Of a stretch of 64,000 bases of DNA, positions 1,697 through 57,898 are shown in pieces. The first letter of the stretch is position 1. Every line of letters starts with the position of its first letter. Below the pieces are notes generated by a model. It was given only the letters and a program-made list of their open reading frames with translations. It made no database searches and was not told the origin of the DNA. The translations under genes and the position numbers were made by a program. The stretch is from Thuidium tamariscinum (Eukaryota; Streptophyta; Bryopsida; Hypnales; Thuidiaceae). The stretch is from contig OX344750.2 of the NCBI GenBank assembly GCA_947034885.2, positions 12,766,053 through 12,830,052 on the forward strand. Reading direction: 5' to 3'.

Positions 1697-3170
1697 GATA
1701 GGGTGATTGCAAGAAACATTTGTACTATTTGTTGCGTTTTGAACTGTAGGGTCGTTGCAAGAAACACTTACCGGTTTTAGCTCAAAATGGTTCAAAATCA
1801 GTGAGTCCTATGACCCTTTGAAATAATTTTTTTTTAAATTGAAAAAAATATGGATAATTTGAAGAGCAATGAGAATATTATGTCTCTTGAAATTCAGACC
1901 TAAGAATTTTTTTCTCTAAATGTTATAGACAATGGAAAATACAATGAAAATAGCTCATTTTTCACTAATTTGGTAAAAATAGTAAAAAAATTCAAAAAAT
2001 AAAAATGAAAAATCCATTTTTTCTACAAGTAAAGGTCTTTCTTTTCCAACAAATTTCATCTTTGGAAAAAATAAATTCTATTCTCTACACTTGCGCAAAG
2101 TCAGCCACTTTGATGACATGTGGAGTCAGCCACTTTGAACAGTATAGTATTTTCAAAAAAACTCTTTGTGGACTTGTGCAACTTTAGGTGAGGTCCTTGC
2201 ATGCCAATTTTCAGCTCAAAATTTGCATTTTTGGGTCAAAAATAGGACTAAAACCCCCCGAAATGGCCAAAGTAGACACCCAATCGGGGGAAGTTTAAAA
2301 ATAGTAAACTAATTTTGAAAAATTGAAAAAATTACCCAAAATGTAAAACTTTTGTAGAAACCTTCTTTTCAAGTTTCAAATCAAATGAACAAAAGATGCA
2401 AAAGTTATGAGCAAAAAACTACCTCCTAAAGGTCAAGGGGACAAAAAAAAGGATAAGTGTTTCTTGCAATCACCTTGTACTCATGATTTCTTTTAAAGTA
2501 CTTTAAAATTAAAAAACTAATTCTTTAAAAAATTTAAAAATATGATTACTATATACATCTTTAAGACAAAGGTTTTCACTCAAGAAAATGGATAGAAAAA
2601 TCCTCTAAGTACGTATGAGAACTTGAAAAGTGCCCAATCTCAAGAAAATAGGCACTTTGATTCAAAAATTAGTTTAAAATAGTATAAATAAGTAAATAAA
2701 AAAAGATAAAAACTGGCCATTTGTAACAAATTTATGGAGATGGTCAATTACTAAAAAATAATCATGAAAATAATATTTAATATGTTTCAAAATACAAGCA
2801 GAAAGAAGCTCACTTTGTAGACTTCCACACTGCATAGAATTAACTATTTTAGAATTCTTTCAATGAAAAGTTGTATTTTTATACTAGGAAAAACTCTACA
2901 AAATTTCATAATGTAACTTTTCAAAAAAGGTACTCATTAGTACTAGAAACCTCAAAAATTGGCAAATGTGGCATACATTTCATGCCTATTCTTTGATAGT
3001 AAATTATTTTTGAAAATTATCAAAAAAATCAAGGAAGTTGTATGGTAGTCATCACTACCTTCTTTATAAATCTTAAGTCATTTGAAATTAAAACACAAAA
3101 GTTATGGCCAAAAAACTAATCAACAAGTGACATAAAATAGGACAAGTGTGTTCCTTGCAATTGCCTGATA
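1697..3170. mobile_element. outer TIR element, AGGGTGATTGCAAG family (1701-3166), TSD GAT(A)
   Basis: Left end GGGTGATTGCAAGAAACA at 1701 and right end TGTTCCTTGCAATTGCCT, flanked by GATA on both sides. It hosts a second member of the same superfamily at 1748-2475. No coding capacity remains. Confidence 0.75.
1745..2478. mobile_element. inner TIR element inserted into its relative (1748-2475), TSD TGT
   Basis: Left end AGGGTCGTTGCAAGAAACAC and right end GTGTTTCTTGCAATCACCT, flanked by TGT on both sides. Removing it restores the order seen in the related copy near 9760 (gttgaaaatgcaac ... actcatgatt on the opposite strand). The interior is almost the same as at 6425-7150 on the other strand. 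Confidence 0.8.
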
Positions 3171-3342
3171 ATTGTGTTCCATTCTCTATTTTTTCCCAAA
3201 GAACAATTTTTTTCAGATTTTTAGAAATAGTTGTAAATCATTTTAAAAATTTCAACATTTTCCAAATTCTCTCAAGTTATTTACAAAACTGATGTACACG
3301 TATGCTATCTTGTTCAAAGCCTCATGAATAGTCGGTCAATGT

Positions 3343-3722
3343 TAAGGGCAAAACACCCATTCCCGCACCTGTTCCTTGGAATGGACCATAGATTCACCCA
3401 ATTGTGTCAATAGACTTTCTTTAATGTGTTCGCCACATGTGTAATTATAATTAGCTTATACAATTGAAGGACACATAGGAGAATCTAGTTGGCTGAGTGC
3501 TAATTTTTGCAGGGTTCAGTTTTAGGGGCACCTACCACACGGGTTCACAGGTCTAGGGAGCCAACACTTTGAAAATTTGTAGAAATTACATACTAAATCG
3601 ATTTTTTTTTTTAATATTCATGATTTTCACTTGCTAATACTAAAAAAATATCATTTTTAGAAAACATTGCCTCCAACTATGCTGAATTCCTTATTTGCAC
3701 GGTTTTGGGTGTTTCCACTGTA
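3343..3722. mobile_element. MITE with TA flanks, copy 2 (3345-3720), reverse to copy 1
   Basis: Starts AGGGCAAAACACCCATTCCC and ends GTTTTGGGTGTTTCCACTG with TA on each side. Interior blocks 'tctagggagccaacactttg' and 'ctccaactatgctgaattcc' are shared with the other copies. Confidence 0.6.
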
Positions 3723-3783
3723 CTTTGGGCTCATCAATTTAGTTGTAAGTATATTGGCCAGGCATGATTCTCAAAGTTGCTAA

Positions 3784-4174
3784 TAAGGGAGAAACACCCA
3801 TTTCCATCCCTGTACCTATTCCTGGTCCCTAGAGTGTCACTAAATCTGTCCATGAGCGTTCATCAAAGTGTCTAACAAGTGTTTAACTCTAATTTGCTGA
3901 CGCAGTTGTAAGACACATGTATAATTTTCATTCACTGACAACTGATTTCAGCAAAGTTCAGTTTAGGGTACACCTACAGGACGGTTCCAGTGGTCTAGGG
4001 AGCCAACTCTTTGAAAATTTGTAGAAATTACATACTGATTCCAAAAAATTTAATTTTTTTTTTGAATATTCATGATTTTCTCTCGCTAATACTAGAAAAA
4101 TATCAGTTTTAGAAAAAGATGCCTCCAACCATGCTGAATTCCTTATTCGGATGGTTTTGGGTGTTTCCACTGTA
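3784..4174. mobile_element. MITE with TA flanks, copy 3 (3786-4172)
   Basis: Starts AGGGAGAAACACCCATTTCC and ends GGGTGTTTCCACTG, with TA on both sides. It lies only about 65 bases after copy 2 in the same orientation. The 93-codon frame at 3958-4239 on the complement is repeat sequence. Confidence 0.6.
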
Positions 4175-4248
4175 ACAGAGACAAACTGTTTTGAATCTGG
4201 TAGCAAGCTCTGAGAACATTCCATCTGGACACTATACAAAGTTTGGTT

Positions 4249-4418
4249 CCAGGTGCAATTTAATTCAACAACATGATGGTGGTGTCAGGTGCAATTTAAT
4301 TCAACAACATGTGGTAGTTTCAGGTACAATTTAATTCAACAACATATGGTAGTTTCAGGTGCAATTTAATTCAACAACATATGGTAGTTTCAGGTGCAAT
4401 TTAATTCAACAACATATG
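4249..4418. repeat. minisatellite, 35-36 bp x 5
   Basis: Units start at about 4250, 4286, 4321, 4356 and 4391, each 'caggtgcaatttaattcaac' followed by 'aacatatggtagttt', with few changes. The last three are almost the same. Confidence 0.9.
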
Positions 4419-4424
4419 GTGGAT

Positions 4425-4615
4425 ACACCCAAAAGCACCACAAATTGGTACTGTTATTATTATTGCTGTTATTATTATTATTGATGTTATTATTATTCTT
4501 GTTATTATTAGATTGTTTAGATTTTTTAAAGTCTTGCTGGCATGTAAAAGCATGTTCCAATTCACCAAAGAATGCAGCATTTGGATAGAGTATGTAAAAG
4601 TTATTAACTCGTAAA
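4425..4615. mobile_element. partial MITE of the AAGGTAGGTACACCC family with an internal TTA repeat
   Basis: Begins GGATACACCCAAAAG and shares 'gtcttgctggcatgtaaaagcatgttcc' and 'tttggatagagtatgtaaaag' type blocks with the full copies. A TTATTATTG microsatellite (about 4452-4510) has expanded in its left part. The right terminus is missing. Confidence 0.5.
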
Positions 4616-6420
4616 GTCCTAAGGCCTATTTCTTGTTAAAAAACACAAAAAACCTACCATTTTCTGCTGCATTTATCTCAAAAAACAGAAAAAAAAACAT
4701 TTTTTTCCGAGAAACTAACCGTAGGATCTTGTAATTAAATTGTTGGAGATCATATAATAAAAATTTGATACCATGTATATTGAAAGATATGCCCATTCAA
4801 AGTTGGAAAAAACAAGTTTTTTGAACTACAATTTGAAATTTTGGATGACTTTTACTACCATTTGTGGACAAAAAATTTCTTTATAGATTTTGAATTAAAA
4901 AAAATTTTGTGTAAAAGAATTGAGTTGAGAGTCTAGGAATAAAATTTCACAAGACAAACACTTGATATTCATTCTTTAAAAAAATTATTAAATAGAAGTA
5001 GGTCCAAAATTAAAAGAAAAACTAAATGGTTAATCGCTCTAAATTGGGATTGGAAAACACAATAATCTCAATGGCAATTACCAATAGAAGTTGACTTTGT
5101 CTAGTCTTTTTGAATTGCCGGCATTACCAATAGATATGTTGAGTCTCTTTTTTGTGCTCCCCAATTTATTTTCTTCCAAATGTAGTACTCAAGTTCATAT
5201 ACCATGTGCTTCTTGCAATATATTCAGTGCTTCTGGTAATGTGTTCAATGCTTTTGCAATTTTTTGGAGGCATCCGCTACATCTTGCAGCTTTCAACTTC
5301 AATTCTTCCTTTGATGGGCCCCATCTAGATGCTTGGCTTCTCAAGTATGTTTGATAGTTTGTCATTTGCATTCAATCACAAAAACTATCATCACAAGTGG
5401 TATCAAATAAATTGATTCTTCTTTTTTCTGACAATTGAAGCCACTTATTATGAACTGTTTCAGACAAATTACAAAAAGACATGTCTATCATTTCTTCTAA
5501 ACTAAGACTCTACAAATCTAGCCATAGTAAAGCATGAGTAAAAAATAAATGAAATATCCTATGGCCAATTGTATTTTGAATTGCTATGTGTAATTGCAAG
5601 TATTGAATTGAAAAAATTCATATCTTATAAAAATTTATTTGAAATAAATAAAAAAAATTCTACAAATGCTTAATATAAAAAAAATTTAGATTGGAATAAA
5701 AATAAAAAAGGATATTACCTTCAACTAGACCTTGCAAGTTGTTGATTATTGAAAGGTACAAAAAATGGAAGTACTAAGTTCAATTATACTACAATTTGTC
5801 AAATCAGACGGATGTTCAATTGATGCCCCCTAATACTCCCATTTTTGGTACCTTTCAAATTTTCCCTAAAAATTATAGAAACAAATTCCAATGATTTATA
5901 GTACTAAAACAATATACTTAAGCAACTCTAGTTATAAAAAAAAAAAAATAGCTTCCAATTTAAATTCAACTTTCTAATACTCTTTTTTTTTAAAGGAACA
6001 ATATAATTTTTTCAATACCAAAGAAATTCACTTACCATTGTCATATTAAAATCTTCCTATTGTAAATACTAAAAATGCCAAAATGCTAGCCAATGGTCCA
6101 AGTGATGAAGTGAGTCTTTACTTGTAGCTCCAAATGACAACTACCATAATCAAATTGCAAGATAGCGTATCTTAGATTCTTAACTTTATCCAATATTTTT
6201 TATTCTTTGTACTACTCACATAGGGCAATGTGTTATTGTTGGAATGTTTGTTCGGTGTGCCTTTGTGTGTGTTTAATTATGAAGATAATTACTCCAATTC
6301 AATGAACATGTCCTCTCATGTTTCTTTCTAACTTCATCTACAAAACCACAATCATAGACAATGCATATAGCATTCCAATTGGCCATAGTGCTCTCTCTCA
6401 TAAAAATTTTAAAGTTTGAC
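4616..6420. other. AT-rich DNA without a supported gene
   Basis: Only short frames rich in Lys, Asn, Phe and Leu. No conserved motif, splice pattern or clear repeat ends seen. Confidence 0.5.
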
Positions 6421-7154
6421 TCATGGGTGATTGCAAGAAACACTTGTCCTTTTTTTGTCCCCTTGACCTTTAGGAGGTAGTTTTTTGCTCATAACTTTTG
6501 CATCTTTTATTCATTTGACTTGAAACTTGAAATGAAGGTGCCTACAAAAGTTTTACATTTTAGGTAATTTTTTCAATTTTTTCGAAATTATTTTACTATT
6601 TTTAAACAGCCCCCGATTGAGTGTCTACTTTGGCCATTTTGGGGGATTTTAGTCCTATTTTTGACCCAAAAATGCAAATTTTGAGCTGAAAATTGGCATG
6701 CAAGGACCTCACCTAAAGTTACACAAGATCACGAAGAGATTTTTGAAAATACTATATTTTTCAACCTCCACATGTCGTCAAAGTGGCTGATTTTGCACAA
6801 GTGTAGAGAATAGAATTAATTTTTTCCAAAGATGAAATTTGTTGGAAAAGAAACTTTTTACTTGGAAAAAAAATTGATTTTTTATTTGAATTTTTTGAAT
6901 TTTTTGACCATTTTTACCAAATTAGTGAAAAATGAGTTATTTTCATTGTATTTTCCATTGTCTATAACATTTAGAGAAAAAAATTCTTAGGTCTGAATTT
7001 CAAGAGACATAATATTCTCATTGCTCTTCAAATTATCCATATTTTTTTCAATTTAAAAAAAAATTATTTCAAAGGGTTATAGGACTCACAAGACTCACTA
7101 ATTTTGAGCCATTTTGAGACAAAACCAGTAAGTGTTTCTTGCAACGACCCTCAT
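6421..7154. mobile_element. TIR element, AGGGTGATTGCAAG family (6425-7150), TSD TCAT
   Basis: Left end GGGTGATTGCAAGAAACAC, right end GTGTTTCTTGCAACGACCC, TCAT on both sides. It is a near-identical reverse copy of 1748-2475, about 726 bp, so these two were amplified recently relative to the rest. Non-coding. Confidence 0.85.
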
Positions 7155-7740
7155 TCACTCCGAGGTTGTGACATTATAGCATTCAAGAACCTCCAAAATT
7201 TCACTTGTACTTTGGTATCTTTGGATTGCATGTCACACATGGCAGTGGTCATTACTTTCTTGTTTTGGTTGTTGTACAATTGGCAAGCTATGGTGGTCTA
7301 GTCCTTCATGTGCTTCTTGTAGTTAAACATCATCCATGCATTCTATAGATTACTTCTAGTTTTCATGCGCCTTATTAGGTTCACTCCACTTCTAGGTCCT
7401 TCAATGAGCATCTTGAAGATGTATACCTTCTCTTTGCCTTAGCTTAAGAAGACACTATCATGTATGAATTCAAACTTTGATTCCTTCTTTATGATCATAA
7501 TGTTATCAATGACACCTCCTTGGTTGTTTGAGTGAAAAGAGAAGATGATATTCCATATACTAAGACTACTTTAAAACTAAAAGCAATCCATGACCACTTC
7601 CATTTCCTCCCCCTTCAAGATTTGTTTCTCTTTTTCTCCATGGTGAAATAGGTGGTTTATAAAAAATCTTTCCTAGTGGACAATACAATGGTGGAGTTGG
7701 TGGTTGTAGAGATTTAAAAAACTTGCTATATAATGAATTC

Positions 7741-8279
7741 AGTAATTTCTTTTGAAGAGTTCTTATACATGCTTTTTGCTATCGGATGATTATGATTTCC
7801 TAAATGAATAGCAACCCTAGTCATATTTGCATTGTTACTATAGTAGAAGTAAATTCTAACATTGCAGGTGGTAAGGCATTTAGATATTGTTTTGCAGACC
7901 TTGCAAACTAGTTTGCAATCTTTTGAAGGAACAACTCCTACAACAAAAGGAAGTATTGTAGAACCACTCCACTATGTATTGTTCTTCTTAGAAGCCCTTA
8001 TCAAGTACTCATAGCTAGGGTTCTCACAAACTAGATGACCAGTATAGAATAACTTATAAAACTTTAGATTATTGGAGTTGTTTATATTTGTTGTCATGAG
8101 CTTGTACCAAGGGTGTCCATTGTAACTCTTGTCCATTGCCACCAAGTTCTTGGTTGCTAAAGAAGAAGAAGACCGGCATGGAGGTAATTCAAAGATGGCA
8201 TCTCTTTTGTAAGTAGGTAGAAGATATTTCACTTGGTGGTGACCACAACATCTATGTCCAAACTTGCAACCAACTCATT
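7741..8279 (-). pseudogene. zinc-finger/MULE-like transposase relic of a moss-type repeat family
   Basis: On the complement the frame reads GCKFGHRCCGHHQVKYLLP, then LPPCRSSSSLATKNL, NGHPWYKLMTTNI and TGHLVCENPSYEYL. A TAG stop at 7972 sits where the family probably has Trp or Gln. Beyond it the same frame continues WSGSTILPF, CKLVCKVCKTISKCLTTCN and RVAIHLGNHNHPI. The Cys pairs followed by H-x-H resemble the WRKY-GCM1/FLYWCH-type zinc fingers of FAR1/MULE transposases. The reading frame collapses after 7741 and is blocked upstream by TGA. I believe this block is a common multicopy family in mosses. It is inactive here. Confidence 0.6.
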
Positions 8280-9818: not shown

Positions 9819-10920
9819 AATGTGAAGTCTCTCTGTCCTCTTTCTACAAGTCAAATCTAAAAAATTGGTGACCAAAAAAATATTAGATTAAAGAGCCTAA
9901 CATGCATATTTCAAATCAATGTAGGGCTTCTCAAAATCCATTCTACAATTTTTGTGAAGGATAATTGCAAGAAACACTTGTCCTTCTTTATGTCTCCTTA
10001 ACCTTCATCAGGTAGTTCTTTGCTTATTTCACCTTTTGTTTTTTTGACTTGGAATTTGTGACAAAGGTGCACACAAAAGTTTTGTATCTTTTGTAATTTT
10101 TTCAGTTTAAAAAAAATTAGTTTATTATCTTTAAGCTTCCCCTGATTGGGTATCTACCTTGGCCATTTTTGACCCCAAAAAGAAAGTTTTGAGCTGAAAA
10201 TTGGCATATAAGGACTTCTAGTATAGTTACACAAGCCCTAAGAAGATTTTTTGAAAATATTAAATTGTCCAACTTCCACATGTGCTCAAAGTGCACTACC
10301 AAGGTATATTTGTACAAAATACAAAATATTTTTCTTCAAGACAAAATTTATTGGAGAAGAAGTACCTTTATATTGTTTTACATTTTATTTTTTAAATAAA
10401 AGAAAAAAGTGTCTATTTTCTTTGTATTTTCCATTGTCCTTTTTCAGTGCATAACTTTTAGAGGTAAATTTTCTTAGATCTGAATATCAAAAGACATCCT
10501 ATTCTTATTGCCTTATAAATTATCCATATTTTATTTTATTTCTTAAAAATTTATTCCAAAAGTCACAAGACTCTTGGAAATAGGCCATTTTGAGACAAAA
10601 TCGGTAAGTGTTTCTTGCAATGACTCTAAATGAATTTTGAATTTGATTTTTTCTCCAAGATCTAATTGTATTTGAGGCTCATGTTCAAAAGTTCTCAACA
10701 CTACAAAAGTCAAGATTGCAAAGGGTACCCTTGCACAAAATCTTGAATAGAAAAATCACTATCATTCATTTTCCAAATTATATTTTAGACTCTAAAACTA
10801 GATTTCAAGAAGAGCTTTTCAAAAATACAAATTACTAAAAATAGAAAATTGGTTAGGTTTTATTTAACTTCAAAGTTTTGCAAACACCAAATTTTGGTGC
10901 CTTGGGCATTTAAGGGTTAA
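9819..10920. mobile_element. family A TTAA element, reverse orientation, broken by an insertion
   Basis: Segments 9819-9957 and 10628-10916 are reverse-complement matches to the right and left halves of the family A copy at 27079. The terminal TGGGCATTTAAGGG is followed by TTAA at 10917-10920. A different transposon (9958-10627) splits the two. The far end is lost under another element ending at about 9818. Confidence 0.7.
9958..10627. mobile_element. TIR element of the AGGGTGATTGCAAG family, diverged
   Basis: Left end AGGATAATTGCAAGAAACAC and right end GTGTTTCTTGCAATGACTCT are inverted repeats. The interior matches the copies at 1748-2475 and 6425-7150 in part (for example the 'gagctgaaaattggcat' block). 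It lies inside a family A element. The target duplication is blurred. Confidence 0.7.
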
Positions 10921-17829: not shown

Positions 17830-18515
17830 TATTTTATTTAGAATTTTGTGTATGCAGGAATCTTTGAATCATTCCATTTGGATTAGTGAGTCAAAAGTTA
17901 TGAGGAGGTTTAGTTTGAGGTAGTTTGTGGCTAGTTACAAAATTCCTACACTACAAAAAAGTTTGAAATCCTTTATTTAATTCAATTTTTAATATTTTTG
18001 GATAAAAATAATTGCAATAGGTGAAGATTGTTTATTACAACATTTTAACCATTGGGATCAAAAAATTTCAATTCCATAAATAAATTGTGTACAATTTAGT
18101 GTTTTGGCTCATTTTCTACTTCTTTGTACTTGTTATTTTTTTCCTCTATGTTTTACAACTCCAAATGATTTGAATTTTTTTTTGCATATAGCCAACTTTC
18201 CTTTAAGAATGAATCCAGAGAGTAACCACCAATTTGAACCTTTTTTCTTACAAATGTAACCTTGTGAAGTGCAGCTGCCCGGATTTCCGCAGTGGTAAAA
18301 AAATGATTTTTGTCACTTCAAACACTAATATCTTGCAATCTACACGGTGGAAATTGCTGAAATTTTTTCCACGTCTTTTTAAAATTATGCTCTAAAATAT
18401 CCTATGGTTACTTTTGTCCAAAAATGTTTTTTTCTTAAAATTTGATAGTTGTCTAAAAAATGACAGTTTTGAAACGGTTTTGGTGAAAATATAGTCAAAA
18501 ACCTTTAGGGGTTAA
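17830..18515. mobile_element. family C TTAA element, right part
   Basis: Ends AAAACCTTTAGGGG followed by TTAA at 18512-18515 and matches 53211-53890 as a reverse complement ('cagctgcc' and 'aatatcttgcaatctac' blocks). The two copies diverge upstream of 17830, so the left end is unknown. Confidence 0.5.
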
Positions 18516-27074: not shown

Positions 27075-27729
27075 TTAACCCCTAACTGCCCAAGGCACCA
27101 AAATCTGGTGTTTGCAAAATTTTGAAGTTAGATAAAACCTAATCAATTTTCTATTTTTAGTAATTTGTATTTATGGAAAGTTCTTCTAGAAGTCTAGTTT
27201 TAGTGTCAAAAATCTGATCTGGAAAATGAATGATAGTGATTTTTCTATACAAGATTTTGTACAAGGATATCCCTTGCAATCTTGACTTTGTGTAGTGTTG
27301 AGAGCTCTTGGAAATGAGCCTCAAATACACTAGATCTTGAAGAAAAAATCACATTCAAAATTCATTTAAAAAAATTGTAGAATAGATTTTGAGGAGCCGT
27401 AAATTGATTGGAATTGTGCATGTTAGGCCCTTTCACCTCATATTTTTTTGGTCACCAAGTTTTTAGATTTAACTTGCAAAAAGAGGATAAAAACACTTTA
27501 CATCACTTTTGCAGTTTTAACACCCTCATGGTCAAACATTATAATCTTTCACTCCACAAGTGTTATTGTCGGGTTTTCTTTTCCTATGTAATCTCTAACA
27601 TGTCTAGTTTGAATTTATACGGTTACAATTCAAAAAAGATTGATACAACTTATCAATATGTTGGCATTTTGTTCAATTTAGAGCAAATTCTAAGAAGCTA
27701 GAAACAGGCCTTGGGCAGTTAGGGGTTAA
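27075..27729. mobile_element. TTAA-flanked piggyBac-like MITE, family A (element 27079-27725)
   Basis: Left end CCCCTAACTGCCCAAGGC and right end GCCTTGGGCAGTTAGGGG are perfect inverted repeats, and TTAA flanks both sides. This is the cleanest copy in the window, 647 bp. A 97-codon frame inside (27408-27701) is not supported as a gene. Confidence 0.9.
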
Positions 27730-49200: not shown

Positions 49201-50745
49201 GGATATGTTTGAGCTCATCCGTTGTTCAAAATTTAAATGTCTGACATTGTTCAAAATTGAAACGTCTGATCCATTAAGGAGTCAAAAAAAATAGAACACC
49301 AGAGAACTTAACAAGATCCACATGAAACTTGAAAAGATTTGAAACACCCCCACAAGGCCTTAAAGCATCATTACCCGCCTCCTTCATTGCAAGCTGTTTC
49401 GATATTGTAAGAGCATCCTTTCCACTCCCGACGATTTCCAACTCAACAGCTTCGCCAAGAACTTCCTTGTGAGACAGCAACTCCGTATAAAAAATATATA
49501 GCGGAGTGGGCAGAAGCTCTGCAAGAGAGTCCTGTTTGCTCCGCTTCGTGTGTAAGATGTTCAATTGTTGCTGAACAGGTAAAGTGGCTTTCTTCAAGGT
49601 TTTCAGGTGCGAAGCAAGACCTCCGAGGAACTTCCGCCTGTTGGCGATGTTCTCTAACAACAACTTCTTCCGGGTTTCTACGATCTCCCGCTGCTTAAGC
49701 AATTCCTTTCGCTGTGATCATACAATACCAGATAATGAGTAATTATGGGCAAGTATGGAGATTAAGAAGAGAAAGAGGTAGTCTCTTGAAATGTGCAGAC
49801 TTAAATATGCCAAAAATCTTGCATCCCCATAATCACTGGGCATATGGCTACCACTAAAAATCACAACCAGAACTGCTCCATTTGTAATTAAAATTAGCAG
49901 TAAAGAAACAAGTGGATCAGGAAAAAAAGTAATGTTATAAAATCATTCATGGCTGAAACGAAGTGTCAAATCTGTGCAACGAGCAAGCCGACATAGAAGA
50001 TTAAGAAATGATTCTCATTTCATATGCTTCATATCTACACATGGTAACTAGTTTGTCATCAACCAGAATCCATTCTGAGCAACAGAAGCGTGTGCGAGAG
50101 GTAGGCACCTGATGAAGCTCGAATTTGAGACGCTGAATCATGAGTTTATGAGGATCATCACGTAATGCAGGATCAGACTGAAGATCCGGTGGCGCATCTT
50201 GGAAAAATGCCTCTTCAGAAACTAATTCAATGTCGGAATATTTAGACCTAAAATCCTTGCAAGTTTTAATGGCCTTTACGTAGTGATTTTTTTCGTAAAG
50301 TAAATTATGGAGCTGCAAAGTGATGTGATCAATAGGCGCTTTCGCACTCTCTGTCTCCAACTTAATTTTATCTTCCTCTTGAAGTATCTCTCGATTCTCC
50401 TGCATCCAAAGCAATGCAAAACCCTTTCTATGAAGAGAAAAGCTAATCCGGCGGAACATCCACAGAAAAAAATGCTTCAAACTGAGAATCTCCTTCACCA
50501 ATATTCGGATTCAAATAGAAGCAGCAGCACAATTGAGCTCCATAGCAACGAAAATGGTCATTCAATCGAAAACTTACCCGCCGAAGGTCAATAAATAAAA
50601 CAGACGCATCCGTGACGATTTCCCGCATGGGGAGAGAGCCCTTGACGTTGGCCTGTCCATCGCGCTTCAAGGCCAACATGCGCGCCATCAAATCCTCCAA
50701 GGAACTCCGAATCTTCACCACGCCTTCAAACGACGCCTTCTCCAT
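46237..50745 (-). CDS. THO5: THO complex subunit 5 (THOC5/FMIP), 8 exons, about 706 aa
   Basis: Exons on the complement: 50578-50745, 50109-50399, 49375-49711, 48047-48375, 47688-47902, 46846-47377, 46555-46704 and 46237-46335. Every junction is GT-AG and the frame stays open. THOC5 is a coiled-coil subunit of the nuclear THO/TREX complex, which couples transcription to mRNA export. Landmarks agree with plant THO5: LQLHNLLYEKNHYVKAI and KDFRSKY in exon 2, RKFLGGLASHLKTL and AELLPTPLYIFY in exon 3, a DDDDTQRQRKRAKK basic stretch (probable nuclear signal) and VYLL-type core in exon 4, and RPYKWAQHL in exon 5. Exon 6 is long and Ser/Gly/Glu-rich, as expected for the variable region, then VVIGADYPTRAPEF in exon 7. 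The start is the only Met upstream of the conserved helix. The C-terminus (LFDKF, stop at 46237) is shorter than the plant proteins I know, so one more exon after a weak donor is possible. Confidence 0.93.
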
Positions 50746-51631: not shown

Positions 51632-52567
51632 TAAACCCCTTAGGGACTAAGTGAACACGGTTTTGACAATGGAGGTTTTCAATGAATTCTAGCAGTTTGA
51701 TATTTTTTTGCATATAGATGTGAATAAATTTTTTAATTTTAAATTGTATAAAAGAAAAGATTTCTTTATCTAGTAAGCATGGAATGAATTTTAGGAAATT
51801 TGGACCGTTACATCTTTAGATTATAATAATTTTGGATGATTAACTTCATAGGCCTAAACTGCACTTTTTGGAGAAAAAAATTAATAAAAAGATGAATAAA
51901 TATTTTTTAACGCCCCCCCTCCAAAAAAATATATATATTTGGAATCTAAAGAAAATATTGTATTTTTTATTTGAAAATTTGAAGGAAAAAAAATCTCTCA
52001 AATTTGTACACATTTTCAAACATGAAGACTAGAAAGTCAATTTCAAGCCAATTGGATCCTACAGAATTCTTAAAAATTTATATATGGATAAATTTTTGAA
52101 ATTTTACAAAGAATTTTATTATCATATTTTTTGGAATATCTTAAAAGAATTTGAAATCATTTTAATTATTTTGTATCATTAATTATACTTGATAATGATT
52201 GAATCTTATATTCAAAAAATTAAAAATAAGAATTTGAATTTATTTTTCAAATTTATTTTGTTTGTGTAGATTATAGAATAGAATTGTATAAGAAAATGTT
52301 TTTTTTTCATCTCTACTATTCTTTTCATGAAAAAAACATTATACTTGCTCTATTTTCCTACTAGACTACATTCTCGACTACATTTCATAAATGAATTTTT
52401 AACTACTTCTAACATTCAAAATTAAAGAATTGGAAAATGAAAAAAGTATGTAAACTTCTTTTTGTACAAGATCTTAGTTCCCAAAATATTGAGATTTGTT
52501 TCACCCTTCCAAGAAATTGCCATTGAAAACTTTAGAGATTGTGTCCTCTTAGTCCTTGAGGGGTTAA
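51632..52567. mobile_element. TTAA-flanked piggyBac-like MITE, family B (element 51636-52563)
   Basis: The element starts CCCCTTAGGGACTAAG and ends CTTAGTCCTTGAGGGG, which is an inverted repeat with few mismatches. It is flanked by TAAA on the left (one change from TTAA) and TTAA on the right. The interior of about 900 bp is AT-rich and has no coding capacity. The right TTAA is shared with the next element. Confidence 0.7.
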
Positions 52568-53210
52568 CCTCTAAATGCCCAAAGGCACTAAGAACTTGGT
52601 GTTTGCATAAGTTTTGAAGTTAAACAAAATCTAACTAAGTTTCTATTTTTAGTAGTTTAATATTTTGTTTTGAAGTTTAGTTTAAGCATCCAAAACTTGA
52701 TCTTGAAAATGATTGATTATGATTTTTCTATTTAAGATTTTGTGCAAGGGTGTTCATTGCAATCTTGATTATGTAGTGTTGAGGGCTCTTTGAAATGAGC
52801 CTCAAATATACTAAATCTTGAAGGAAAAATCACATTAAAATTTCATTTAAAAAAAATTTGTAGAGTAGATTTTGAGAAGCGATAAATTGATTGGAGTTAA
52901 GTACATTCGGCCCTTTAACCTCGGGTTTTTTTTGGAGGCCAACTTGTAAATTTGACATGTACAAAATAGATCAAAATATTCAAGTCATTTTTGCAATTTT
53001 AACACCCTTATGATGAAATACTATAATCTTTCAATCCATAGGTGATATTGTTGTGATTTCTTGTTCTAAGTGATCTCTAACATGTTTAGTTTGAGTTTAT
53101 ACAATTACAGAAATCCAAAAGTAATATGACTCATTAAAATGTGGTCATTTTGTTCAATTTAGAACTAATTCTTCAAAACTTAGAACATGCCTTGGGCATT
53201 TGGGGTTTAA
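52564..53210. mobile_element. TTAA-flanked piggyBac-like MITE, family A (element 52568-53206)
   Basis: Left end CCTCTAAATGCCC and right end GGGCATTTGGGG form terminal inverted repeats, and TTAA stands on both sides. The interior aligns by eye with the copies at 27079, 53941 and 56026; shared blocks include 'cttgcaatcttgattatg' and 'gagcctcaaatacactaaatctt' types. It is non-coding. Confidence 0.8.
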
Positions 53211-53936
53211 CCCCTAAAGGTTTTTGACTATGTTTTCACCAAAACCAATTCAAAATTGTCATTTTTTAGACAACTACCAAATTTTAAGAAAAAAACATTT
53301 TTGGACAAAAGTAACCATAGGATCTTTTAGAGCACAAGTTAAAAAAGATGTGAAAAAAATTTCAGCAATTTTTGCCTTGTAGATTGCAAGATATTAGTGT
53401 TTGAAGTGACAAAAATCCTTTTTTCACCACTATGGAAATCAGGCAGCTGCACTTCACAAGGTTACATTTGTATGAAAAAAAGTTCAAATTGGTGGTTACT
53501 CTTTGGATACATTCTTAAAGGCAAGTTGGCTATATGCAAAAAAAAATTCAAATCATTTGGAGTTGTCAAATATAGAGGAAAAAAATAACATGTACAAAGA
53601 AGTAGAAAATGAGCCAAAACACTAAATTGTAAACAATTTATTTATGGAATTGAAATTTTTTGATCCCAATGCTTTAAATGTTGTAATAAAAAATCTACAC
53701 CTACTGCAATTATTTTTATCCAAAAATATTAAAAATTGAATTAAATAAAGGATTTCAAACTTTTTTCGTAGTGTAGGAATTTTGTAACTAGCCACAAACT
53801 ACCTCAAACTAAACCTCCTTATAACTTTTGACTCACTAATCCAAATGGATGATTCAAAGATTCTTGCATACACAAAATTCTAAGTAAGAGACATTTGAGT
53901 GGTATGCTTCAATTCTATCCAAATAAAAGATATTGG
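53211..53936. mobile_element. TTAA-bounded element, family C, possibly truncated
   Basis: The left end CCCCTAAAGGTTTTTGAC directly follows the TTAA at 53207-53210. From there to about 53890 it is a reverse-complement match to 17830-18511, which ends GGTTTTTGAC-type sequence plus AGGGG-TTAA. No matching right end is seen before the next TTAA at 53937, so either the right end is lost or the next element inserted into this one at a TTAA. The ORF at 53397-53588 is not considered real. Confidence 0.55.
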
Positions 53937-54578
53937 TTAACCCTTAAATGCCCAAGGCACCTAAAAGTGGTGTCGAAGAAACTTTGAAGTGAAATAAAAC
54001 TTTACGAAAATTCCTATTTTTAGTAGCTTATATTTTGGAAAATTCTTTTTGAAGTCTAGTTTTAGCATCAATAATCCGATTTTGAAAGTGAATGATTATG
54101 ATTTCTCTATTCAAGATTTAGTGCAAGGGTATCCATTGCAATCTTGATACTCTATAGTGTTAAGGACTCTAGGAAATGAGCCTCAAATACACTAGATCTT
54201 AGAGAAAAAATCACATTAAAAATTCATTTAAAAAATTGTAGAGTAGATTTTGAAAATCCATAAATTGAATGGGGTTATGCTTGTTAGACCCTTCAACCTC
54301 ATATTTATTCGTGACCAAATTTTTAGATTTGACTTGCAAAAAGAGAGCTCAACGATTTTCATAGTTTTTACACCCTTGTGATCAAACATTATAATCTTTC
54401 AATCCGTAAGTGATATTGTTGTGTTTTCTTTTCCTATGTCATCTCTAACATGTCTATTTTGAATTTGTGTGGTTACAATTCAAAAAAATTGATTCAACTT
54501 ATCAAAATGTTGGATTTTTGTTCAATTTAGAACAAATTCCAAGAAGCTCAAAATAGGTCTTGGGCATTTAGAGGTTAA
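53937..54578. mobile_element. TTAA-flanked piggyBac-like MITE, family A (element 53941-54574)
   Basis: Left end CCCTTAAATGCCCAAGG and right end CTTGGGCATTTAGAGG, with exact TTAA on both sides. The 634-bp interior matches the other family A copies. It is the last of a run of elements placed end to end since 51.6 kb. Confidence 0.85.
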
Positions 54579-54850: not shown

Positions 54851-54945
54851 GGGCAATGCTCTCGTCGTCGGGTATTTCGCCTAAAAAAGGGCCGACGAGG
54901 AGGCCCTTTTTTGGGCAAAATACTCGACGACGAGGGATATTGCCC
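54851..54945. repeat. foldback hairpin, arms about 43 bp
   Basis: Left arm GGGCAATGCTCTCGTCGTCG ... AAAAAAGGGCC and right arm GGCCCTTTTTTGGGC ... GACGAGGGATATTGCCC pair with few mismatches around a spacer of 8 bases (gacgagga). GC is far above the neighbourhood. Confidence 0.85.
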
Positions 54946-55598: not shown

Positions 55599-56324
55599 GT
55601 GCTCCTCCTTGTTTCCTAGTTCTAAAGTGATAATGGCGCACTAAAGTGTGCATGCCATGGCCATCTTATTAAAAAGTTAACACATATAATCTGTGATCAT
55701 GAATGGTAGTGACCAACCACCCTTGCTCAATTGACAATTGATCTCCACTAACTTCATCTGAAATTATTATGTGCTGAGGTAGCATTTCTACATTTGTGAC
55801 ATGAAATGAAGCCATCAAACTAAATAATCAATCGTTAGCCTACCCTTCAAGCGAGAATTGAAACCAGTAGCAATCTGAACTTAGTTCCAAAATTTAGATC
55901 GATCGAGTGGTGAAGGAGAGGATTAAAAAAAAACATAATTCTTGTAGTTATGTGCATCTGGCCAGAGAAATCAGAATAAAAGGAATTTATATACGTACTT
56001 CATGTTTAATTGGGTTAATTAATTACCCCTAAATGCCCAAGGCACCTAAAAGTGGTGTCCAAGAAACTTTGAAGTTAAATAAAACCTTATCAATTTTCTA
56101 TTTTTAGCATTCTATATTTTTGGAAGATTCTTTTTGAAGTCTAATTTTAGCATCAATAATCCAATTTTGAAAATGAATGATTGTGATTTTTCTTTTCAAA
56201 ATTTAATGCAAGGGTATCCATTGCAATCTTGACATTCCATAGTGTTAAGGACACTTGGAAATGAGCCTCAAATACACTAGATCTTAGAAAAAAAATCACA
56301 CTAAAAATTCATTTACAAAAATTG

Positions 56325-57256
56325 TAGAAGGTCATTGCAAGAAACGGTGGTACTATCACTAGAAGAAAATCGTGTTAAAATCCATAGAAACACGTCAAGT
56401 AGTTTATGTTGAGTTCCTGTTTCAAAACGCAGTCAAAACACAGTCATTTTGACTGCGTTTTGAAACAGGAACTCAACATAAACTACTTGACATGTTTTCA
56501 GGGATTTTAACATGGTTTTCTTCTAGTGTATTTTGCTATCACAATTGGACATACTCTCTCATTGTCTGCAATAACTTTTGAAGCACAAGTTGAATGAATA
56601 TGAAATTTTTATTGAAGATGTATAACTTTATTGTTATCACATCTCTTATTTTTTAGAAATTAAAAAAAAATCATTTTATATTTAAAAACTATTTTTGTTA
56701 ATTTGTCACAAGTTGAGGTTTAGGGGTTTTCACTATGTTATGAGCCCCTAAATTTAAATATTTGGAGTTGAAACTTTCATGGTCTACTTGTATAATAAAA
56801 AAACTCATATCTACCAAAGGAAATCTAGAAATACATTATTTTAAGTCCTCCACATGAGTACAAACATCACTTCTGTTGCGCACAATTTTTGAACATTGAA
56901 GATAGTTCTTGGATCTATTTTTTTGGTGAAATGTCATTAATATCAATTCTTCCTAAATGGAAAATTTTTAATTTTAAGAAAAATTCCTTCCTTTATTTTC
57001 TGTAAATTAAAATGTGAAATTACAATGACAAAACTACTTTAATGAGATTTTGCACTTTTCTAGTTCACCTACTTAGAAAAAATTTCTATACTTTTCCTTC
57101 TTAGGGTACCTTCTTTTTAAAGATATATATATATGAAAATTATTTTTTACATTTAAAAAAAATTATTTTTCTAATTTTAAAGTACTCCCGAAAGAAACAG
57201 GAGTATTGTGAAAAACGCTACGCTTTTTGAACACCATTTCTTGCAATGATCCTAGA
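56325..57256. mobile_element. TIR element of the AGGGTGATTGCAAG family, nested (56329-57252)
   Basis: Left end AGGTCATTGCAAGAAACGG and right end CCATTTCTTGCAATGATCC are inverted repeats. TAGA stands on both sides, and the empty site is known from sister copies of the host element, so the insertion is proved by comparison inside the window. Target duplication is 3-4 bp. Of the 924 bp, 172 belong to an inner CACTA MITE. Confidence 0.85.
56354..56531. mobile_element. CACTA-type foldback MITE, 172 bp (56357-56528), TSD TAT
   Basis: The element begins CACTAGAAGAAAA and ends TTTTCTTCTAGTG, and the two halves are nearly perfect inverted repeats of about 75 bp around a short centre near 56440. TAT flanks it on both sides. 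CACTA-class transposons start CACTA/CACTG and make 3-bp duplications, so the assignment follows from ends plus duplication length. It has no coding capacity. Confidence 0.88.
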
Positions 57257-57898
57257 GTAGATTTTGAGAAGCCATAAATTGATTGGGGTTATGCTTGTTA
57301 GGCCCTTCAACCTCATATTCTTTCGGTGACCAAATTTTTTAATTTCACATGCAAAATGAGAGTTTAAAGATTTTCATAGTTTTTACACCCTCATGATCAA
57401 ACATTATAACCTTTCAATCCATAAGTGATATTGTTGTGTTTTCTTTTCCTATATCATCTCTTACATGTCTACTTTAAATTTGTATAGTTTCAATTCAAAA
57501 AAAATTGATTCAACTTATCAAAATGGTGAATTTTTGTTCAATTTAGAGCAAATTCTAAGAAGCTCAAAATTGGCCTTGGGCATTTAGGAGTTAAGAAACG
57601 CAAAACAAACATGACAAGTTTGTTTGAAGGCCTAGTTTCTTTGAAAAAGGTATGGGTAGTGAAAGTATAGGGAACAAAAGTGAATCTTAAGTCTCTTGAA
57701 CACCATTTGTCTCCACAATAGCATCTTCTGTGATGGTAGGAAGAAGCATAGTTGGCAATACTGAAAACGTTTTATATGCTTTCCAGGAGGAGTATATTAA
57801 ATGAGACTGCTAGTTAGGTCTTCCACAATCCTTTCCAAATGATGGGGATCGTGTTCGATTAAACCTTTGTCCATATTTGACAAAGTAATTGTCTCATG

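Follow-up and report, generated by a model that had tools for sequence, protein, structure and literature searches.

Among the closest described systems is piggyBac of Trichoplusia ni (T. ni; structures 6x67/6x68), which duplicates a TTAA target and encodes a DDD transposase with a C-terminal cysteine-rich domain; its left and right ends are unequal, and the left one carries a palindromic repeat at bp 17–33, centred at about bp 25, to which the cysteine-rich domain binds as a dimer (PMC7351741). Short non-coding relatives of piggyBac-type elements are described from animals, namely mPok, related to Pokey of Daphnia (PMC4912750), and piggyBac-related MITEs of corals (PMC2872659). An animal survey reports piggyBac elements flanked by TTAG, TAAA, CTAA or ATTA, and its abstract names piggyBac in plants (PMC10813416). 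PiggyBac is also listed in a repeat table for Ceratopteris (PMC6890710) and mentioned in a MITE review (PMC10004981) and a plant TE review (PMC10794571). For plants, the earlier records thus consist of mentions and a table entry, whereas the present analysis covers the transposases of a plant genome, their near-identical copies, the element ends and the target sites.

The window analysed is a stretch of 64,000 nucleotides from the moss Thuidium tamariscinum (assembly GCA_947034885.2, contig OX344750.2, positions 12,766,053 to 12,830,052 of the forward strand). At 51632–54578 it holds a chain of four elements from three families (Table 1). The preliminary description had seen three or four different piggyBac-type elements placed end to end, with a single tetramer at each junction. 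All five tetramers read as it gave them, TAAA at 51632 and TTAA at 52564, 53207, 53937 and 54575 in the letters of the window, but E3 and E4 are not in contact: 49 bp of other DNA separate them, and the only true element-to-element contacts are E1/E2 and E2/E3. Likewise, the number of elements is indeed four, but E2 and E4 belong to the same family, F, and the number of families is three. The CCC termini of the same description were borne out, with one change in single copies (CCTC in E2, CTCC in E1 copy 0). As to the neighbourhood of the chain, two open frames directly to its left, at window 49274–50510 on the minus strand, match THOC5 (PF09766), and the window also contains a long hairpin at 54861–54934, with 33-nt arms of 91% complementarity, and a fold-back of 90% identity at 56357–56528.

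Table 1. Positions in the window of the chained elements, their target tetramers and further copies of the same families
Feature	Position	Strand	Basis
F copy interrupted by a family H MITE (~9964-10628); left TTAA present, right part gone	9838..10920	-	
Second E3-family copy in the window, 94% identity to E3	17834..18515	-	
Complete F copy, TTAA on both sides; young subfamily	27075..27729	+	95-97% vs 8 fetched genome copies
Left-end palindrome CACCA-5-TGGTG in the 27075 F copy	27096..27110	+	
E1 left target tetramer TAAA, one change from TTAA	51632..51635	.	letters
E1, MITE of 928 bp	51636..52563	-	end type; genome copies
TTAA common to E1 and E2	52564..52567	.	letters
E2, family F MITE, old copy, 78% vs the 27075 copy	52568..53206	+	
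TTAA common to E2 and E3	53207..53210	.	letters
E3, truncated member of a ~950-bp MITE family	53211..53887	-	genome copies
49 bp without match to the E3 family or E4	53888..53936	.	
TTAA left of E4	53937..53940	.	letters
E4, family F MITE	53941..54574	+	
E4 left-end palindrome CACC-7-GGTG, centre 25 bp into the element	53958..53972	+	
TTAA right of E4	54575..54578	.	letters
F copy interrupted by an H-type insert (~56329-57252); tetramers ATTA left, TTAA right	56025..57594	+	

Identity to the scored or nearest relatives is 93–95% for E3, 86–90% for E1, 90% for E4 (to the 56025 copy, in a self-comparison of the window) and 77–81% for E2, and because these identities differ, the chain's components are of different ages. 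This bears on whether one block could have been duplicated, segmentally or in tandem, to give the chain without separate insertions. E2 and E4 share orientation and family and lie about 1.37 kb apart, as a duplication could have left them, yet the window self-comparison gives them only 76% identity to each other, against the 90% that ties E4 to the 56025 copy; the high identity of E3 to its scored relatives again implies parts of unequal age, and the self-comparison shows no second copy of E3 or E1 flanking E2 or E4. Tandem duplication of the chain was rejected on these identities, and we consider an origin of this kind very improbable indeed.

To place the elements in their families, we searched the window's own genome (363 Mb in 19 contigs). 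For family F, 40 matches were scored of 4,781 first-look candidates, the latter being a loose number and no copy count; the sample was formed by 27 of the 39 scored rows that remain once E2's own is set aside, leaving out two higher partial matches and the lower rows. These 27 fetched loci and the window gave 25 complete copies, of which 22 have TTAA on either side; counted over all ends seen, TTAA stands at 27/30 left and 25/27 right ends, and the four bases beyond it are free, without any pattern. It is on these target sites that a reading of the MITEs as PIF/Harbinger (Tourist) elements, with a 3-bp TTA/TAA duplication, or as Tc1/mariner (Stowaway) elements, with a 2-bp TA duplication, has to be judged, the flank then reaching TTAA by accident. 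The tetramer does contain both TA and TAA, but all four of its bases are fixed at both ends of those 22 complete copies, with only the bases outside it free; neither the 3-bp nor the 2-bp duplication was found at family F target sites, and we give this reading next to no probability.

The end pattern of family F, allowing at most one mismatch, occurs 3,232 times in the genome (1,607 + 1,625 on the two strands), compared with 0 for a reversed control, and this abundance is not due to chance. The exact back-to-back end TTAGGGGTTAACCCCTAA, which is its own reverse complement, was found at 78 places (control, 0), which indicates that contacts like those of the window's chain recur in the genome. 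A 2.9-kb pair of F ends on contig C1 (L090), considered as an autonomous partner, was discarded as an F copy with other DNA inside. Separately, the window harbours a further MITE group, H, at 1747–2474, 6426–7151, 9964–10628 and 56329–57252. Its ends are close to GGGTCATTGCAAGAAAC, and it duplicates 4 bp of target other than TTAA (TAGA for the 56329 copy, TTTA/TTCA for the 9964 copy); two of the copies sit within F elements.

The other two families were sampled in the same genome, with 40 matches scored of 1,179 candidates for E1 and 40 of 8,180 for E3, both candidate numbers again being loose and not copy counts. For E1, the sample comprised ten of the twelve rows ranked next below the window's own; in the two omitted rows the match starts at query base 23 or 25, and the sample consequently favours copies with the left end kept. 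TTAA was present on the left in 9/10 of these, on the right in 9/10 and on both sides in 8/10. E1 is read on the minus strand because its right end is of the palindrome-bearing type that forms the left end of piggyBac. For E3, the sample was eight of the first ten rows, omitting the window's second copy and one row with an adjoining extra fragment, and TTAA was found on both sides in all eight. The 39 other scored E3 matches, the window's second copy included, cover query bases 1–681 only, and all eight fetched copies extend about 270 bp more, to a CCCC end of their own and TTAA. Since the relatives match only those bases and then continue to another end, E3 itself is without its right end.

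F, E1 and E3 are therefore each families with multiple copies in the genome, which agrees with the earlier view of several small-element families in one plant window, and the TTAA flanks that were to be sought at genome copies are there at both ends in all three samples (22/25, 8/10 and 8/8). Departures from TTAA of the kind reported in the animal survey (PMC10813416) were seen at E1, at one host site and in a few copies.

A source of transposase is at hand in the same genome. A profile search with PF13843 scored at least 116 loci (658 candidates), all over the family cut-off and with a best E value of 5.7e-80, and in about two thirds of the listed loci, as counted from the listing, the domain is free of stops. 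One complete element of about 5.1 kb has the left end TTAA-CCCCTAAACGCC and the right end TTAA-CCCTGAAACGCC. Nine sampled copies of its lineage share a common right end and TTAA, followed by unrelated flanks; in a comparison of 3,984 bp, seven of these copies proved identical, and the other two showed one difference. Such near-identical copies are probably very young and would have jumped very recently. The protein of this lineage matches two transposases of solved structure, piggyBat (1.1e-27) and T. ni piggyBac (1.1e-22), and the three catalytic aspartates given for the latter in PMC7351741 align with it in an alignment read by eye. In 6/6 aligned proteins of the genome, the aspartates and the C-terminal Cys/His residues (cysteines and one histidine) are invariant. 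The likeness to T. ni piggyBac has its limits, with a similarity of only about 80–100 bits, 594 aa in the moth protein versus open frames of 1,023 and 774 codons (stop to stop) in the moss, and palindrome arms that differ between lineages of the moss genome. The full-length relatives encode a DDE_Tnp_1_7 transposase with the three aspartates, and the MITEs are tied to them by end similarity only.

One locus (L049) shows a full-length element and a MITE side by side. The element (reverse complement, 1767–6862) lies in a tandem host repeat, and a MITE with similar ends, at about 7107–7837, occupies the same insertion place in a neighbouring repeat unit; the unit with the element has TTAA at both sides. 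The third unit is uninterrupted and shows a single tetramer, TTAG, in this one case. The preliminary description had proposed a check of empty sites with one TTAA, and here an unfilled site with a single tetramer does stand beside a filled one. The same locus has a second open frame of 285 codons (L049:4743–5597, minus strand), which partially overlaps the transposase frame and has no Pfam match at E 0.01. Among viral contigs, 30 pattern matches yielded no confirmed relative.

As to the host, the plastid contig C19 carries psaA and psaB, and pieces of psaA/psaB also lie in nuclear contigs (C1:38344367, C6:6427592, C2:5226827 and C3:42715477), which argues that these chromosomes belong to a plastid-bearing, photosynthetic host. 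The best-scoring matches of PsaA are 8htu and 6l35, which are chains from the moss Physcomitrium. Contig C9 spans exactly 24,900,000 bases, an oddly round length.

We next consider the anatomy of the ends. The left-end library was made up of 20 transposase elements, from 25 upstream stretches; L092, L099, L100, L111 and L117 were omitted as having no end or a single far one, although the distant left end of L099 does carry a palindrome. For L115, the end nearer the transposase was taken, which is without a strict palindrome. Counting perfect stems of at least 5 bp whose centre falls within bases 25–32 (base 1 being the first T of TTAA), we found a palindrome in 16/20 left ends, the remaining 4/20 being short or absent. 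In 13 of these 16 it is centred on base 29, which lies 25 bp into the element (28, 28.5 and 31 in the others), and the arms vary among the lineages of the genome. The stems of the 20 left ends sum to 103; shuffling gave a mean of 49.1 (SD 4.2), and 0 of 1,000 shuffles reached 103; as this fixed-position test was chosen after the ends had been inspected and some of the 20 come from related lineages, the shuffle count is no clean probability. When palindromes were sought without restriction, most ends taken singly had weak p-values. Control windows farther inside the same elements showed nothing in 6/7 cases and a weakly raised value in one (28/1,000), and no right end of nine had a 5-bp stem (summed stem 24 versus 22.2).

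The same feature recurs in the MITEs. Left ends of family F carry CACCAG-aat-CTGGTG or a 5–6 bp variant in 11/13 examined copies, with none at the right ends seen, and the right end of the E1 family has arms of 4–10 bp in 10/10 copies, compared with at most 3 at its left ends. The palindrome is broken in E2 and in the window's E1 copy, and the left-type end of the E3 family is without one at bp 25. Taken together, the palindrome evidence supports membership in piggyBac independently of TTAA and CCC.

For the comparison of MITE ends with transposase-element ends, the left-end library was joined by a right-end library of 19 ends (L105, L123 and L128 having been dropped from one set of 17 downstream stretches), the common TTAACCCC, that is the first 8 bases, was removed, and scores were set against 200 shuffles. 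The left end of the 27075 F copy had its score reached by 0/200 shuffles with the left-end library and by 43/200 with the right-end library; its right end gave the converse, 0/200 with right ends and 44/200 with left ends. The right end of the E1 family matched left ends (0/200) and not right ends (64/200), and the kept (left) end of E3 matched right ends (1/200) and not left ends (107/200). Judged by their sequence, several MITE ends thus match transposase-element ends, with left/right polarity and beyond the common first bases, the similarity being confined to tens of bases. Other ends were less clear: the opposite end of E1 had no match in either library (94/200, 65/200), the left-type end of the E3 family gave 13/200 with left ends, and against polarity stands L011, an F copy of another subfamily, whose left end gave 35/200 with left ends and 3/200 with right ends.

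Kolobok and Sola3 are other superfamilies with TTAA targets, and a TTAA duplication is not by itself decisive between piggyBac MITEs and MITEs of one of these, moved by a transposase of its own. That origin appears very unlikely, given that the ends match elements encoding PF13843, with left/right polarity for F and E1, and that the palindrome is placed as in piggyBac. The search for a full-length partner, as proposed in the preliminary description, was successful in that a piggyBac transposase is encoded by elements whose ends are of this kind. No full-length element carrying both complete ends of F, of E1 or of E3 was found among the 25 transposase loci examined upstream, of the 116 scored; there were partial end matches, and the best ones to the two ends of F come from different loci, C3:4298709 and C7:1357340. 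The domain at C3:4298709 is interrupted by a stop.

The results show the target duplication, the anatomy of the ends, the multicopy nature of the families, and the presence of transposase elements that are intact, nearly identical to one another and bounded by similar ends. The identification as piggyBac made in the preliminary description is supported by the TTAA duplication, the CCC ends, the transposase relatives and the left-end palindrome; nothing refuting it was encountered, as most sampled flanks are TTAA and a transposase of piggyBac type is encoded by partner elements that end in the same manner. We are accordingly highly confident that E1–E4 are non-autonomous piggyBac MITEs, which resident transposases would have moved into TTAA and successive insertions would have chained. 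That the window's MITEs were mobilised by the transposases residing in this genome is most likely.

In such a scheme, the MITEs would have lost the gene and retained both ends that the transposase recognises, a left end that combines a TTAA-CCCC tip with a palindrome centred some 25 bp into the element, and a right end that has no palindrome. Resident transposases would recognise tip and palindrome, the latter presumably bound by the cysteine-rich domain, and transfer the MITE by excision to a TTAA target. As each insertion duplicates TTAA, a later element could land against an earlier one, and an end-to-end chain may have grown in this way, step by step. The MITEs of Daphnia and corals, too, are reportedly moved by piggyBac-type transposases. 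Repeated insertion at a boundary TTAA, the explanation first offered for the chain, is consistent with what we see, but a preference for boundaries lacks support: CCC follows TTAA on the outer side in 2 of 46 transposase-element ends, too few to claim one.

The moss elements thus resemble T. ni piggyBac in their TTAA duplication, DDD transposase, C-terminal cysteine-rich domain, left-end palindrome near bp 25 and unequal ends (PMC7351741), and the MITEs resemble the Daphnia (PMC4912750) and coral (PMC2872659) elements as short, non-coding or piggyBac-related forms. Those have animal hosts; here the host is a plant, and several families lie end to end. That piggyBac elements are poorly documented in land plants, as had been remarked, holds insofar as our literature search, which covers subscription journals thinly, returned no description of natural piggyBac elements in a moss among the matches listed, but piggyBac had already been named in plants. 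The superfamily is known; the surprise is a rich, recently active population of it in a plant, and what is new is the unusual host together with partner elements that are unusually many, young and varied.

PiggyBac, taken from a moth, is a main tool of genome engineering, and the many open transposase frames in this plant genome would offer a source of plant-adapted transposases. In the genome itself, piggyBac MITEs account for thousands of small repeat ends. It is an evenly balanced proposition that the moss hosts a presently active piggyBac radiation in which each lineage reads its own left-end palindrome at bp 25, forming separate recognition pairs with the cysteine-rich domain, and in which MITEs would have spread by keeping one such palindrome. 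As the lineages differ in a palindrome whose place in the left end is nearly constant, these elements would constitute a natural experiment in the divergence of end recognition.
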